44,110 nucleotides of DNA, from contig JAFAQY010000051.1 of the NCBI GenBank assembly GCA_019261985.1, positions 1-44,110 on the forward strand, read 5' to 3'. Of the stretch, positions 3,201-28,985 are shown piece after piece (positions within the stretch are counted from its first letter, which is position 1; every line of letters begins with the position of its first letter). The position numbers and the translations under genes were made by a program. The notes below the pieces were generated by a model. That model did no database searches. It was not told the DNA's origin and worked only from the letters and a program-made list of their open reading frames with translations. The stretch is from Bryobacterales bacterium. GTDB taxonomy: Bacteria; Acidobacteriota; Terriglobia; Bryobacterales; Bryobacteraceae.

Positions 3201-3607
3201 ACGTTCTGCGCAACGAATGCGCCAACGGGTACATCGATATTTTCGATCCGCGCCGGACGGTACTTCGGCGCTTCAACCGACAGCGAGTAAGTGCCGGGAG
3301 GCAGGAGCGGCACGACGAAATATCCCGACGGGCCCGAAACAGCCGAATAACTGGTGCCCGAAGCGGTGTGAAGAGCGGTAATTTCCGCGCTAAGCGGCTG
3401 GCGGTCGACATCGTCGCTGATCCTCCCGGTAATCAGACCCTGGCTGGTCTGCGCGGCCGCACTTACCGACAAGCAGAGAATGACGTGGGGCAGGTTGCCA
3501 ACCTGCAGCGGGTTGCCAACCCGCTCGCCGGCGTTTCGAGCAACCCCGAACAGCGCGGTTGGAAACCGCTCGCAGGATAGCATCCGGGCCCACAAGCGCA
3601 TAACCAC
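248..3607 (-). CDS. TonB-dependent receptor, Oar-like, with carboxypeptidase-regulatory domain
   Basis: Predicted outer-membrane beta-barrel that takes up a large ligand with energy from TonB; the substrate is unknown. After a signal-like stretch ending in SVSAAAQ (about residues 46-54), residues 57-140 form a CarboxypepD_reg/Cna-B-like fold (GLITGRI...GYFVVPLLPPGTY). A plug follows (FLLDGLDNNNY, AEYGRTAG, ATRSGG), then a long barrel ending in an aromatic residue (MVRVLF). This layout is standard for the large acidobacterial receptors. The odd part is the start: residues about 5-42 are encoded by a copy of the dispersed hairpin repeat (3485-3593), so the leader is abnormal. Either translation begins at 3607 or 3601 with a repeat-encoded N-region before the hydrophobic core, or the insertion has damaged export. 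It diverges from the BACON protein across the 31-bp array. Confidence 0.9.
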   Translation of the reverse strand: MVMRLWARMLSCERFPTALFGVARNAGERVGNPLQVGNLPHVILCLSVSAAAQTSQGLITGRISDDVDRQPLSAEITALHTASGTSYSAVSGPSGYFVVPLLPPGTYSLSVEAPKYRPARIENIDVPVGAFVAQNVSLRLLTDIWQRQVMRRSFSPDGKTILTFYGPDVDTSRSIFVEQATSVKSDIAPSLSYVIGPSLLDNLPLAGRDLYELLTLEPGVTNDLATLRGVGVSANGQRPSSGSFLLDGLDNNNYLITGPYAALVPEAVGEYRISTNNFSAEYGRTAGFLANAATRSGGDRWHGLGYTYLLNEALNANDFQRNADGQGRLPLRGLEQGVRAGGPLIRDRLFMLAFAEYSRERTWDDAQAFTFPTPSFIANVQGPIAASLLNQFKPSVPVTGSGDTATVLIRPPHTYDRAIGLGRLDWRQSVKDRWSGRVLAQRQWIPDFIWSPYQGFNSEYQQNAYSVGISETRSWTPSITSEVRGGVGRDLTGWSNPQPAVPHLAVPGVMLPGSPGAYFFQNWGTNAEVNGNVLIDTHRNFLKAGGGLLWRGMQGYFVPPGTAESVSFPSLKVFAADGPGQVQFANARDAALVKAYGDPQINRDYRYTQTFFFVQDSIRVNNRLLVHLGVRYDSFGPPVNTGAEKDWLIQLGSGSSFPARLTYATLPPPSPGNQQVYAQDRNDWAPRVGLAYNLASDGSTLLRAGYGVYYDRPFDNLWINARFNNTVPATAALPAGANYVNMPVSTLAGNSTVNGFFQVYPFTLYQPGIRTPYVHSYFFGLEHRIGSNWLLRLAYAGSQGRKLITTDIVNRMDSTCLVFQVTSGSCRYSDSLNNDIDYRANQGTSSYNAMIFAADYRFRRGEFHAAYTWSHAIDNQSEPLSGGLSANLEVTSFNAALIAPRPAGFTEQFNSSVDRGNADFDQRHTGVIYGVWDLPKAPGTGWVTALTRDWRIAGLSAIRSGLPYTIYASGAPATMLVAGVAGLLNYNRANLIATQPLSANTGAYGDGVRLVNPASFADPVNKLGSLGRNALYGPGLFNIDLSASRTFRITESVSAMLRVDAYNALNHSNLNNPAPDRVFVGSESLAVATYGRIANTSPLFFGPAGEPARRLQMMVRVLF
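3485..3593 (-). repeat. Dispersed hairpin repeat, copy 1 (inside TonB receptor 5' end)
   Basis: A 109-bp copy in reverse orientation. Read on the minus strand it carries GGATGCTATCC, a GCGGTT-TCC-AACCGC hairpin, an AGCGGGTT-GGC-AACCCGCT hairpin and a GCAGGTT-GGC-AACCTGC hairpin, and it ends CTGCCCCAC. It matches the copy at 25579-25687 in order, spacing and length. It overlaps the start of the TonB receptor reading frame. Confidence 0.85.
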
Positions 3608-3611
3608 TTTA

Positions 3612-3704
3612 GTGTAATCAAGTTATCTTGTATAATCAGCCGGTGTAATGAAGCTATCTTGTATAATCACCCGGTGTAGTGAGGTTATCTTGAATAATCA
3701 GCCG
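3612..3704. repeat. 31-bp tandem repeat, three units, with -10-like boxes
   Basis: Units start at 3612, 3643 and 3674, each exactly 31 bp, and run from GTGTAAT to CAGCCG with few substitutions. Units 1 and 2 contain TATAAT (3631-3636 and 3662-3667) and unit 3 has AATAAT (3693-3698). The array fills the gap between the divergent TonB receptor and BACON-protein genes. Because 31 is not a multiple of 3, it is unlikely to be coding. It may be a multi-copy promoter or operator; no good -35 box stands 17 bp before any of the boxes. Confidence 0.8.
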
Positions 3705-3740
3705 ATGCAGGCGAATCCCACTGTATTTACTCCCGCTTTT

Positions 3741-14967: not shown

Positions 14968-14988
14968 TTAGATCTCAGCCCTCTACCG

Positions 14989-15051
14989 ACTCCGAACAGC
15001 GCGGTTGGCAACCGCGCGCCGGATGGCATCCCGGATGGCATCCGGCCCCAC
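14989..15051 (-). repeat. Dispersed hairpin repeat, copy 2 (left half only)
   Basis: In reverse orientation, only the left half of the element is present: TGGGGCCGGATGCCATCC, a second GGATGCCATCC, the perfect GCGCGGTT-GCC-AACCGCGC hairpin, and CTGTTCGGAGT. It abuts exactly the truncated third unit of the 75-bp tandem repeat, so it seems to have replaced or cut that unit. Confidence 0.8.
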
Positions 15052-15239
15052 TCGGCGCATATGTAATCCAGCAACTCGGTATTCAAAACTCGTTTCCTCA
15101 CCAGATGCGGGAGGTCCTTCTGGTTCTCCGCGCAGATATACTCCAGCAGCTGGGTATTCAGAACTCATTTTCCTACCAGATGCGGGAGGTCCTTCTCGTT
15201 CTCCGCGCAGATATAATCCAGCAACTCGGTATTCAGAAC
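15052..15239 (-). repeat. 75-bp in-frame tandem repeat at the 3' end of the third paralogue
   Basis: Units lie at 15165-15239 (end of the gene, including its TGA), 15090-15164, and a truncated one at 15052-15089. The period is exactly 75 bp (25 codons), so the reading frame is kept past the stop. Unit 1 ends AAATGA, and unit 2 has AAACGA at the same place, so the stop codon corresponds to Arg in the second unit. Unit 3 is cut by the hairpin half-element. Confidence 0.85.
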
Positions 15240-15971
15240 AATCACCTGGCTCAGCTTCGTGGTCCACGGCTTGGTGTAGGCCTTGGGATCGTCGACGGTA
15301 ATTTCGATTTCCAGATGCCCGAAATCCGAACGGCGGAATCGCTCGGTCATTTTCGCGGCGTCCGTCATCGGGCTGCCGCCCATATCGAGCCACTGGCCAT
15401 CCCGAAACCCCACCGTTTGCACGACGAGCGTATCTCCATCCCATTGGCCCGATGAATAGCCGCGCCACGAAGGCTGCGGATCGGAAGGCAAGGGCCTTCC
15501 ATCGATATAGATCTGGCGGTAAAACGCATCGTGTTCATTGAGGATTGCCAGTATGCCCGGCGCCTGTACAATTTTGCGATACAGCGGAGTGGTGTGCATT
15601 TCGACGTTGCTGTACGGCAGGCAATGCGTGGAAGGGGCGTCCTTGTCGTTATCGGCCGAGCGCTGCGCATGGACAGCCGCGGCCCACGGCTGAAATGGAA
15701 GTCCGCCCTCAATGCGCGCCCCGATATCCAGGAACTGCCGGTTCAGCGGCAGATCGGCACAGCCGTCGGGAGGACAAGGGACGTTCACCTCGGCGCCCCA
15801 CAATCCCGAGAGATCGGGATGGCCATCAACGGCGCGTGGCGCGGGAGCCGATAGATTCGGCCGGCCATTCGGCAACCGCGGCACTCCAGCCGTCGGGTAG
15901 TTCACCCACTGCGCCCCAAGGGGCACGCAAAGAATGGCTACCATCACGACCGCTCTATTTCCCGACCGCAT
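15165..15971 (-). CDS. Secreted protein of an uncharacterised family, third tandem paralogue
   Basis: 268 aa from the ATG at 15971, preceded by a GAAGGA ribosome site; the frame is open further upstream, but that lies inside the previous gene. Signal peptide MRSGNRAVVMVAILCVPLGA, then QWVNYPTAGVPRLPNG. The conserved core has GYSSGQWDGDTLVVQTVGF, GQWLDMGGSPMTDAAKMTER, FRRSDFGHLEIEITVDDPKA and YTKPWT, and the end is ENEKDLPHLVGK. The family is widespread in acidobacteria and some proteobacteria, but I know no function for it. It overlaps the second paralogue by 17 bp. The last 25 codons are repeated downstream. Confidence 0.8.
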   Translation of the reverse strand: MRSGNRAVVMVAILCVPLGAQWVNYPTAGVPRLPNGRPNLSAPAPRAVDGHPDLSGLWGAEVNVPCPPDGCADLPLNRQFLDIGARIEGGLPFQPWAAAVHAQRSADNDKDAPSTHCLPYSNVEMHTTPLYRKIVQAPGILAILNEHDAFYRQIYIDGRPLPSDPQPSWRGYSSGQWDGDTLVVQTVGFRDGQWLDMGGSPMTDAAKMTERFRRSDFGHLEIEITVDDPKAYTKPWTTKLSQVIVLNTELLDYICAENEKDLPHLVGK

Positions 15972-16764
15972 GAACGGAATCCTTCTCGTTATCGTTGCAA
16001 TAGTAATCGAGTAGTTCGGTGTCCGGCACAAGCATTTGGTGCAGGACGACGGTCCAGGGCTTCGTGTATGCTTTGGGATCGTCGATGGTAACCTCAATCT
16101 CCAAATTGCCGAAATTCACGCGGCGATATTTCTCCGTCATTTTCGCGGCCTCCGTCAGCGGGCTTCCATTGCGGTCTAACCACGTCCCATCGCGCAGACC
16201 GTTGGTTTGCACCACAAGAACGTCGCCCTCCCATTTCCCAATCGAATAACCATTCCACGATGGAGAGGGATCCTCAGGCAGTGAACGCCCGTCCGTGAAG
16301 ATCTGCCGGTAAGTGACGTCGCGTTCGGAAAGCAAAATCGTAAGACCCGGCATCTGGATGATCTTGCGATAAGGAGGATACGTGAGCAGCCGCAGCGCGC
16401 CCGCCGGCTTGCACCATGCGACTGGATCGTCCTTTCCTAAATCCGCCGTCCTCTTCTTAACCAGCTCGGCCGCCCACGGCTGATAAGGGAGGCCGCTGGC
16501 GAGACGCGCGCCGATGTTTCCAAATTCGCGCCCACCGCGATAATCTCCAGCGCATGGCTGGATGGCGTTGGCGGCGCACGGCGCAGGCTCGAGTTGCCAC
16601 ACCCCGGAGAGATCGGGGTGGCCGCCGGCGCGTGGCGCGGGCGCGTTCAGGTTTGGCTTACCATTGGGCAGGCGCGGCGTTCCTGGCGCGGGGTAATTGA
16701 GCCACTGTGCTGTCGCCATTGCGCCGCTCAGCAGAAAGATCGAAATCGTCTGGTGGATGATCAT
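15955..16764 (-). CDS. Secreted protein of an uncharacterised family, second tandem paralogue
   Basis: 269 aa. The ATG at 16764 overlaps the stop of the first paralogue as ATGA, so translation is probably coupled. Signal peptide MIIHQTISIFLLSGAMATA, then QWLNYPAPGTPRLPNG. The core matches its neighbours: GYSIGKWEGDVLVVQTNGLR, GTWLDRNGSPLTEAAKMTEK, YRRVNFGNLEIEVTIDDPKA, and the end NDNEKDSVHAVGK. It has additional Cys residues (PCAANAIQPCAGD) that the third copy partly shares (PCPPDGCAD) and the first lacks. Function unknown. Confidence 0.8.
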   Translation of the reverse strand: MIIHQTISIFLLSGAMATAQWLNYPAPGTPRLPNGKPNLNAPAPRAGGHPDLSGVWQLEPAPCAANAIQPCAGDYRGGREFGNIGARLASGLPYQPWAAELVKKRTADLGKDDPVAWCKPAGALRLLTYPPYRKIIQMPGLTILLSERDVTYRQIFTDGRSLPEDPSPSWNGYSIGKWEGDVLVVQTNGLRDGTWLDRNGSPLTEAAKMTEKYRRVNFGNLEIEVTIDDPKAYTKPWTVVLHQMLVPDTELLDYYCNDNEKDSVHAVGK

Positions 16765-17558
16765 TTCCCCGTGAGATGCCGGACATCCTTTTCGTTCTCC
16801 AGGCAGACAAACTCCAGCATGTCTGTATCGGGCGCGAATGCTTGAGTTACCTGGATACTCCAAGGCTTGGTGTACGCCTTCGGATCGTCAACTGTGATTC
16901 CGATTTCAAGCCTTCCAAAAGTTGGGCGGTGAAACCGCTCGGTAATCTTCGCCGCATCGGTCATCGGCGTTCCCCGGACGTCGAGCCATGTGCCATCCTT
17001 AACGCCGATCGTCTGAACAACCAAGGTATCTCCTTCCCACTTTCCGCTAGAGTAGCCGTTGAAACTGGGTTGCGGATCGGCTGGCAGCGGTCGGCCATCT
17101 GTGAAGATCTGCCTATAAGCGGTGTCGCGCTCAAACAGGATAACCAACAATCCTGCAGTCTGGATGATCCTGCGTGGATAGGGATGAAGATGCATTTTGA
17201 TTGGTCCCAAAGGCTGGCAATGCGAGTCCGGATCGTCCTTGCTGTTCACGGCCAGCCGCGCTTTCAAAAGATCCGCCGCCCAGGGCCGAAAGGGCAGGCC
17301 TCCCTTGATCTCCTTGGCAACGTCTTGAAATTGCGGGTCCCGTCCGCCTGAGCCGGTGAAGCTGGATGTGGCCGGTCCGATGGGCTCCCAAAGCCCAGAT
17401 AGATCGGGCTTGCCGTCGGCGGTTCGCGGAGCGGGCGCGCTCAGGTTCGGCTTGCCATCGGCGAGCCGCGGAATTCCGGGGGTGGGATAGTCCAGCCATT
17501 GCGCGAAGAGGGGCGCCGACACCGCAAGCATCACCGAGAGCTTGATCCGGGCGGCCAT
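16761..17558 (-). CDS. Secreted protein of an uncharacterised family, first tandem paralogue
   Basis: 265 aa. The ATG at 17558 has a near-perfect AGGAGGT ribosome site 5 nt upstream; the frame is open to 17630 without support. Signal peptide MAARIKLSVMLAVSAPLFA, then QWLDYPTPGIPRLADG and PRTADGKPDLSGLW. The core reads GYSSGKWEGDTLVVQTIGVK, GTWLDVRGTPMTDAAKITER, FHRPTFGRLEIGITVDDPKA, and the end LENEKDVRHLTGK. It heads a three-gene operon of paralogues with 4-bp and 17-bp overlaps. The tandem arrangement suggests local duplication followed by divergence. Function unknown. Confidence 0.8.
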   Translation of the reverse strand: MAARIKLSVMLAVSAPLFAQWLDYPTPGIPRLADGKPNLSAPAPRTADGKPDLSGLWEPIGPATSSFTGSGGRDPQFQDVAKEIKGGLPFRPWAADLLKARLAVNSKDDPDSHCQPLGPIKMHLHPYPRRIIQTAGLLVILFERDTAYRQIFTDGRPLPADPQPSFNGYSSGKWEGDTLVVQTIGVKDGTWLDVRGTPMTDAAKITERFHRPTFGRLEIGITVDDPKAYTKPWSIQVTQAFAPDTDMLEFVCLENEKDVRHLTGK

Positions 17559-17722
17559 GCGCACCTCCTGTCGCGCGCACAATGCTGGACGCTGTGCGCT
17601 CCTGCAAACTCGCGGACGATTGTATCGCATCTAAGCCCTGAGAGCGCGTTCGCGCCATAAAATTGGAGCAGCCCCTGGGACCCGCTCGGGTTGCGAAATT
17701 GAAAAGACGCATGCTTGCGTTT

Positions 17723-23005: not shown

Positions 23006-23131
23006 TGCCGGAAACCGCAAAATCGTTTCCGGCAGCGCATGTTCTTGCCGTTCACCTTCGTTGCTCGTTTTCTGTGTGGATGGAAAGGCGGCCTGCCGAG
23101 CCCGCCTCCGGCGCAGTAGGACGACCTGAAA

Positions 23132-23266
23132 GTGGCAACCTGCAGCGGGTTGCCAACCTGCTTGCCGACGTTTATTCCAACCCCGCCCAGCGCGGTTGGC
23201 TTGTTTTGTTTATTTGGGAAGGGCCGCGCCTTATCTAAGCGGCATTGGGATGGCATCCGGCCCCAC
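23132..23266 (-). repeat. Dispersed hairpin repeat, copy 3 (decayed, with insertion)
   Basis: In reverse orientation it keeps TGGGGCCGGATGCCATCC at one end and AGGTTGGCAACCCGCTGCAGG at the other (about 23135-23160). The hairpins between are damaged, and roughly 40 bp of foreign sequence separates the first and second hairpins (23201-23243). Confidence 0.65.
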
Positions 23267-23303
23267 ATGTGCGGATTCAGCCTGTCCTGCGCACTTAAAT
23301 AAA

Positions 23304-25570: not shown

Positions 25571-25695
25571 TTTTTTCTGTGGGGCAGGATGCCATCCTGC
25601 GCGCGATTGCCAATCGCGCTGTTCGGGGTTTTATAATGGCCCACCAGGCGGATTGGCAATCCGCCGCAGCTTAGCAAGCTGCCCCACGGAAAAAA
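25571..25695 (+). repeat. Dispersed hairpin repeat, copy 4 (best preserved, with extended inverted ends)
   Basis: The 109-bp core (25579-25687) runs GTGGGGCAG to CTGCCCCAC. Inside, in order: CAGGAT-GCC-ATCCTG, GCGCGATT-GCC-AATCGCGC, a 27-nt spacer with TGTTCGGGG, GGCGGATT-GGC-AATCCGCC, and GCAGCTT-AGC-AAGCTGC. The flanks TTTTTTCT and GGAAAAAA extend the terminal inverted repeat to 17 bp with one mismatch. It lies between two genes on the same strand. Confidence 0.9.
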
Positions 25696-28715: not shown

Positions 28716-28867
28716 AGAACGCTCGACTATTGAGAGGCTGAGACTCTGAGGCGGGCTGGAAGCGTTCTCAGAGCTTACAGACCGCGCCGGGAGGTTGTCC
28801 CAACCGTCTCGGAGAATATTTCCGAGAATCAGATTGCCACGAGGCGCGAAAGCTTGTCAATACCGTC

Positions 28868-28985
28868 GTGTCGTCGGATGCTGTCCTGCGCGCGGTTGCC
28901 AACCGCGCGTGGGCTCTCGGCAAAACAGACCAGGCGGGTTGGCAACCCGCCGCAGGCTGGCAGCCGGGCTGGCAGCCTGCCCCAC
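28868..28985 (+). repeat. Dispersed hairpin repeat, copy 5 (with duplicated fourth hairpin)
   Basis: In forward orientation: GGATGCTGTCC, the perfect GCGCGGTT-GCC-AACCGCGC, a spacer, the perfect GGCGGGTT-GGC-AACCCGCC, then GCAGGCT-GGC-AGCC. The last hairpin is repeated (GGGCTGGCAGCC) before CTGCCCCAC. The left end has drifted (GTGTCGTC for GTGGGGCA). It ends 11 bp after the stop of the DUF169 gene. The rest of 28716-28996 holds nothing I can support. Confidence 0.85.

Follow-up and report, generated by a model that had tools for sequence, protein, structure and literature searches.

A dispersed four-hairpin repeat in a Bryobacterales genome: very probably a RAYT-mobilised element of the REPIN type

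The 109-bp repeat that recurs along the stretch of Bryobacterales DNA analysed here (44,110 nucleotides, hereafter the window) is very probably a REPIN-type element of single-strand mobile DNA, non-autonomous and mobilised by a RAYT, with two hairpins in each of its halves. Its spread would depend upon a RAYT encoded in this genome, the likeliest being that on contig C47, which would recognise the foot and hairpins of the element in single-stranded DNA, such as that of the lagging strand. The enzyme would then cleave the DNA and move or copy the element into intergenic DNA without duplicating the target. In this scheme we infer the acting RAYT, the cleavage, the copying step and the movement itself.

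The basic unit is a composite REP, consisting of a foot and the two hairpins of one side, and the 109-bp element is formed from two such units placed head to head. In the consensus the foot GTGG is followed by a single nucleotide and then by a hairpin with a 7-bp stem and a 3-nt loop, which agrees with the REP descriptor in the available text of PMC6006769 (a hairpin with a stem of at least 7 and a loop of 2-5, preceded on its 5' side by a GTAG or GTGG foot at a distance of 0-2 nt). The features of the window are as follows.

25579..25687, + strand: intact four-hairpin 109-bp element, the top family match (covariance model R1, 125 bits over 25578-25687)
25579..25583, + strand: left foot, GTGG plus G, a REP-type tetranucleotide (from the sequence; GT[AG]G foot as in the available text of PMC6006769)
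25584..25600 (17 nt), + strand: left outer hairpin, stem 7 bp, loop 3 nt (sequence and stem counts)
25601..25619 (19 nt), + strand: left inner hairpin of type A (GCGCGATT), stem 8 bp, loop 3 nt (sequence and stem counts)
25620..25646, + strand: spacer, 27 nt (sequence)
25647..25665, + strand: right inner hairpin of type B (GGCGGATT), unlike the left inner hairpin (sequence and parsed copies)
25666..25682, + strand: right outer hairpin (sequence and stem counts)
25683..25687, + strand: right foot CCCAC, an inverted GTGGG (sequence)
3485..3593, - strand: second intact copy, 109 bp (105.7 bits over 3485-3594)
28868..28985, + strand: third copy, with the left foot decayed and the right outer hairpin enlarged (81.2 bits over 28867-28985)
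14989..15051, - strand: half copy with one foot, an outer hairpin with an extra nucleotide and inner hairpin A (46.8 bits over 14968-15052)
23132..23266, - strand: decayed copy, the left inner hairpin of which carries an insertion (36.0 bits over 23130-23267)

An earlier sequence-only reading had described five copies. All five are recovered both by the covariance model, which was derived from 29 copies with the two intact window copies among them, and by repeat finding carried out without a model. The order of the hairpins and the 109-bp length of the two intact copies also hold, as do the half state of the copy at 14989, which is REP-like and resembles a REP singlet, and the decayed state of that at 23132. 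The 17-bp terminal inverted repeat ascribed to the fourth copy has to be corrected, being in part chance flank: the exact match of the element's own ends is 9 bp (GTGGGGCAG). End complementarity ceases at the element border, with only 0.22-0.34 of copies complementary per outside position in a set of 50. In all, 119 elements were at hand, 39 of which came from best-match loci. A parse into two plus two hairpins succeeds for 65 of the 100 elements of at least 98 nt, the 35 without a clean parse being excluded from the type counts, and the spacer measures 23-30 nt in 62 of the 65.

The window holds several further repeats and frames. Between two divergent genes at 3612-3707, adjoining the first copy, lie three tandem repeats (GTGTAATCAAGTTATCTTGTATAATCAGCC-like) with 31-bp spacing. 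Tandem repeats of 75 bp adjoin the half copy at 15051-15275, and after them, at 15165-17630, come three similar tandem reading frames about 800 bp apart. A frame at 22202-23005 matches the N-terminal domain of the T4-type terminase large subunit (PF03237, 44.7 bits).

Beyond the window the repeat is present in hundreds of copies in the genome (6.49 Mb in 138 contigs). A model scan returns at least 150 matches, all significant (the best 150 of 6817 candidates, worst E 8e-11), and BLAST at least 40 (the best 40 of 400 candidates), while an exact-match count of inner hairpin A gives 234 places per strand across the whole genome, with a control count of 0. An 837-kb sample, made up of the window and 40 pieces, each no longer than 20 kb, of five long contigs that had featured among the matches, and hence not a random draw, contains 80 non-overlapping model matches (E up to 0.001). 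If the sample is typical there would be approximately 620 matches per genome, decayed copies and halves counted. These copies are mostly intergenic: 61 of the 80 lie outside genes (less than 15% overlap), set against an expectation of 7.9 and a maximum of 17 in 300 random placements, with 12 of the remainder mixed and 7 inside called genes, where the calls come from a custom codon-usage script rather than a standard gene finder and give a coding fraction of 0.867. A second hairpin family, GCAGGCT-N2-5-AGCCTGC, occupies 136 places per strand of the same genome (control 0). Many of its tips are similar to those at the ends of the RAYT units on contig C52; some members (GCAGGCTGCCAGCCTGC) look like variants of the 109-bp family.

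A gene of the RAYT/Y1 type, as envisaged in the sequence-only reading, is indeed found in the genome, with no Y1 transposase match in the window. PF01797 is matched at five places, of which one has an internal stop. The C47 RAYT gene (L037:3868-4425, minus strand) is open, encodes 185 aa and scores above the cut-off of Pfam PF01797 (Y1_Tnp). Its product contains an HUH motif and a Tyr within RYIELNPV, which we take to be the catalytic Tyr; across the four open RAYT genes this region reads RYIELNPV, MYILENPV, RYIENNPV and NYIRYNPV. Against NCBIfam NF047646 (REP_Tyr_transposase) the C47 RAYT gives E 1.7e-22 and 79.9 bits, slightly missing the cut-off of 80, which the gene on C119 passes (88.6 bits) and which the two genes on C52 do not reach. 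In the PDB its sole match at E up to 0.01 is TnpArep 4ER8 (E 3.3e-6). The twelve closest full-length RAYTs among the matches listed are, by their titles, from Acidobacteria, for example Sulfopaludibacter, Bryobacterales and Solibacter. At L036:3764-4372 a RAYT gene has arrays of GTAGGACAAGCTTCAGCTTGTCC-like hairpins on its flanks and sits in a run of what appear, from their translations, to be respiratory-complex genes.

The link between the C47 RAYT and the dispersed element lies in their ends. The C47 unit is 661 bp long, with the RAYT between inverted double-hairpin ends whose foot is GTGGGG, whose outer hairpins are GCAGGTTGCTAAACCTGC and GCAGGTTGCCAACCTGC and whose inner hairpins are GGCCGGTTGCCAACCGGCC and GGCCGATTGCCAATCGGCC. 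Its outer hairpin GCAGGTT..AACCTGC recurs among the outer types of the dispersed copies, and TTGNNAA tips are common to both, although the GGAT outer type of the copies is tipped differently. Inner stems are not shared, being GGCCGGTT/GGCCGATT at the C47 RAYT and GCGCGATT and GGCGGGTT in the dispersed copies. The pairing of gene and element therefore rests upon the foot, the outer hairpin and the bases near the loop. Since the tips at the RAYTs on C52 and C119 are of the CTTCAG or CTTTAG type, the C47 gene is, by resemblance, the best candidate. Ends of four different kinds are found at the genome's four open RAYT genes.

Double-hairpin ends with a GT[AG]G foot are a wider feature of such genes. 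Among 35 RAYT genes of this and related genomes, on 34 selected loci with four genes from this genome and 3 near contig ends, such ends are found on both sides of 17, on one side of 7 and on neither side of 11, the C119 RAYT belonging to the last group; the counts are not all independent, as the pairs L117/L200 and L126/L205 each seem to represent a single locus. Control intervals of similar size have both ends in 0 of 600 cases and any end in 27 of 600. The covariance model matches 12 of 41 genomes, this one included, and the RAYT query matches 17 of 41 (E up to 1e-5). At this threshold the two occur together in 10 genomes, the element alone in 2, the RAYT alone in 7 and neither in 22 (p 0.001), and with RAYT E up to 1.1e-30 the corresponding numbers are 7, 5, 4 and 25 (p 0.007, or p 0.014 without this genome). 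Within the genus alone, this genome excluded, the association falls short of significance (5/5/2/10, p 0.17). Dispersed relatives of the GCGGACC-ended RAYT units of G011 and G023 are few or absent: the pattern occurs at 3 and 6 places, against 0 and 3 in the control, and two of the places in each are the unit's own ends. In G004 a GCGGACC..GGTCCGC double-hairpin family (L298-L313) occupies 88 places per strand, with several of 16 looking like single halves, and none of the five G004 RAYT loci examined carries a RAYT matching it.

What sets the compact elements apart is that their two inner hairpins are unlike. A model-free scan of the 837-kb sample identified 102 inner hairpins with up to 2 mismatches, 54 of them unpaired, and all 24 adjacent inner pairs are A-B, with no A-A and no B-B. 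This bears on the counts obtained in other ways, as model R1 and the first BLAST were built from A-B copies and hence favour that type. The first six stem bases are identical in both inner hairpins in none of the 65 parsed elements, and among 28 foot-bounded stretches in the sample, 16 of which parse (two overlapping), none of the 16 reaches an inner identity of 0.85. The same architecture is present in related species, where 20 of 21 compact elements, drawn from 8 species, have unlike inner hairpins (the exception, L229, has an identity of 0.86), leaving out 5 of 20 loci without a foot-bounded stretch (L228, L237-L240) and the unparsed L084 of G014. In RAYT units the inner hairpins are more alike: an inner identity of at least 0.8 is seen in 1 of 21 dispersed elements versus 7 of 15 units (rank test p 6e-6), where elements of one species are not independent and the units were picked by eye, with 1 of 16 unparsed (L141). 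For the outer hairpins the same level is reached by 8 of 21 dispersed elements and 10 of 15 RAYT units.

Could this asymmetry simply be a founder effect, the family being an old, dead relic that arose in a single amplification from one asymmetric master? The uniform A-B order of the 24 inner pairs is just what copying from one master would give. Such an origin is nevertheless improbable, as relatives other than G011, which has the same inner pair as this genome, carry different hairpin pairs that are likewise unlike, open RAYT frames are present, and the outer types swap in a coupled manner, with GGAT/GGTT in 36 elements, GGTT/GGAT in 8 and the same type in 4 (p 4e-6, for the 48 of 65 parsed elements that have only GGAT and GGTT types).

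Within the reading of the repeat as a RAYT-mobilised element, a tentative proposal, which we hold with rather less than even confidence, is that compact double-hairpin REPINs must be asymmetric, and that the constraint is eased where some 600 nt separate the halves, as in RAYT units. Identical halves about 27 nt apart would form a near-perfect arm of around 40 bp, with loss of the four-hairpin form that the RAYT would read, and an arm of this kind might also invite palindrome-specific cleavage. Predicted DNA folds bear this out only in part. Artificial symmetric controls fold as one arm, at -69.6 (left halves) and -67.4 kcal/mol (right halves), and the asymmetry of natural copies shrinks the gap between the arm and the four-hairpin form from 39.5 to 10.1 kcal/mol. 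However, the computed minimum of the natural copies is still a long imperfect arm (mean -39.8 kcal/mol) and not the four-hairpin form (-29.7), which comes within 2 kcal/mol of the minimum in 1 of 65 elements. The available text of PMC3733652 describes a preference for heterodimers in other REPs, together with the same SbcCD idea, and states that it has 'no obvious explanation', while a hairpin-versus-clover idea appears in a supplementary legend of PMC3116915. If true, the asymmetry rule would provide a general answer to why REP heterodimers are preferred.

The sequence-only reading also held that the family is selected for its structure, on the strength of compensatory changes in the stems. 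These changes stand when assessed on 29 copies (28 of 30 genomic loci, L018 and L019 being left out, plus one window copy). Stem cells are paired in 98.3% of cases, and changes on both sides affect 8 pairs and 27 cells, compared with 3.0 and 3.6 in shuffles, with 0 of 500 shuffles as high, while 0-3 pairs remain when the stem partners are slid as a control. One of the five measures is unexceptional (13 further pair types versus 10.9, reached in 51 of 500 shuffles), and since these copies rank with the best matches and part of the signal comes from a small number of inherited stem types, the cells do not count as independent events. Covariation is better supported by comparing units and species, whose stems differ completely and yet stay paired: the outer stems of RAYT units include GCAGGTT, GCGGACC, GCAGCCA, GCACGCA and others, all still paired.

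Selection for structure seems to apply to the copies that replicate, the fold then not being maintained after insertion. Stem pairs broken by a change on one side number 0.54 per element at 85% or more identity to the consensus (n=46), 1.48 in the next identity class (n=31) and 3.74 at 65-75% (n=19). Elements below 65% (n=23) have 2.43 broken pairs, and in them gaps remove 9.4 of the 30 pairs. With rising divergence, pairs that have changed on both sides but still pair number 0.89, 1.61, 2.05 and 1.96 per element, counts that include known alternative stem types. On balance this pattern fits decay after insertion, so that the structure would be needed for spreading, with no visible function in residence.

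There is accordingly little likelihood that the repeat is a resident RNA or DNA structure which is selected by the host, whether as a stabiliser of mRNA 3' ends, an attenuator or a site for supercoiling or protein binding, and is not currently mobile. The rise of both-side-changed pairs from 0.89 to 2.05 would suit such an element, if it is more than known alternative stems, but broken pairs rise faster. It would also suit such a role that, of 41 copies in the gaps between tandem genes, 29 are closer to the upstream stop codon and 12 closer to the next start (p 0.012), at median distances of 9 and 45 nt, respectively. Yet this preference would also be expected of insertions that spare promoters, there is no strand bias relative to genes (21:20), and a scan of the window against Rfam 15 gave no match at the gathering score.

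Insertion is indicated at one site, in a Cas6-like gene (PF10040; L063:18446-19372). Here a copy at L063:18941-19046 lies within the open frame and in frame with it, adding about 35 codons, and the gene in six of six relatives lacks the element at that point. Next to it some 4-5 codons of the relatives' sequence are absent, which implies either an imprecise insertion or a later change at the site. This is the one empty site among seven joined-flank junctions, that is, the only one spanned by a relative (40 relatives and this genome, with 7 candidates scored per genome); for the other six, where both flanks matched a relative they did so on different contigs. In the 50 clean-ended copies, position -1 is T in 62% and position +1 is A or T in 82%. 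In this same set, drawn from the 119 elements with 69 excluded for want of clean ends or 40-nt flanks, target duplication is missing: none of the 50 copies has one of 3 nt or more, and those of 1-2 nt are at or below chance. The earlier description as a REP- or MITE-like mobile family therefore stands for its first half, in a dispersed, REP-like family in a genome with RAYT/Y1 genes, and not for a MITE of the DDE type. Terminal inverted repeats (GTGGGGCAG), small size and many intergenic copies would befit a classical MITE, a deletion derivative of a DDE insertion sequence that is moved by its transposase through short terminal inverted repeats, but with these target-site counts and with ends resembling those of Y1 transposase units such an origin is very improbable.

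The RAYT-mobilised element can be placed beside several known systems. Members of the IS200/IS605 family are not known to duplicate their targets, a trait in common with the element here. They also share with the present system a transposase of the HUH/Y1 type and hairpin ends, and differ in that here four open RAYTs have four kinds of ends and the compact non-autonomous form is the abundant one. Class 3 TnpA_Y1 of Solibacter usitatus, as set out in the available text of PMC6006769, is likewise found in Acidobacteria with a Y1 transposase and about 600 structures in one genome. Its foot is CnGA and its Tyr motif Y----Q, whereas the foot here is GTGG and the C47 motif is RYIELNPV (Y+5 = P); as none of the four open RAYTs has Y----Q, the system falls outside this class.

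A closer likeness is with the TIRtrons, or TIRYT (BMC Genomics 2013, PMC3733652), in which, according to the available text, a RAYT-like gene is located between long terminal inverted repeats. This trait recurs here on both sides of 17 of 35 RAYT genes and on one side of 7. Some TIRtron repeats are dispersed, some are 'double palindromic' according to a figure legend, and the TIRYT include an acidobacterial group (K. versatilis, A. capsulatum and others; available text of PMC3733652). Dispersed copies are counted in that text as single, dimeric or grouped TIRs, whereas the present ones, from Bryobacterales, are compact, asymmetric four-hairpin dimers, a comparison in which the TIRtron double palindromes are represented by the legend. 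Among the matches listed in the literature, no REPINs of Bryobacterales or Solibacter appear beyond PMC6006769 and PMC3733652.

The closest system is that of REPINs or BIMEs and their RAYT (TnpA_REP). Common to both are a GT[AG]G foot by a short hairpin, head-to-head pairs, hundreds of intergenic copies and a RAYT flanked by its repeats, and REP heterodimers and in-frame intragenic copies have already been reported (available texts of PMC3733652, PMC3116915, PMC8266576 and PMC2817692). The difference is that each half here consists of two abutting hairpins, giving four per element, that the hosts are Acidobacteria and that the inner hairpins are unlike in nearly all of the relatives' elements. 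The family would add to the REPIN/RAYT kind of mobile DNA an acidobacterial design of two hairpins per half and four stems per element, which reaches hundreds of copies in a single genome and whose stems vary between species, and the comparison of compact elements, with their unlike inner hairpins, to RAYT units, with more similar ones, makes the question of REP heterodimers directly testable.
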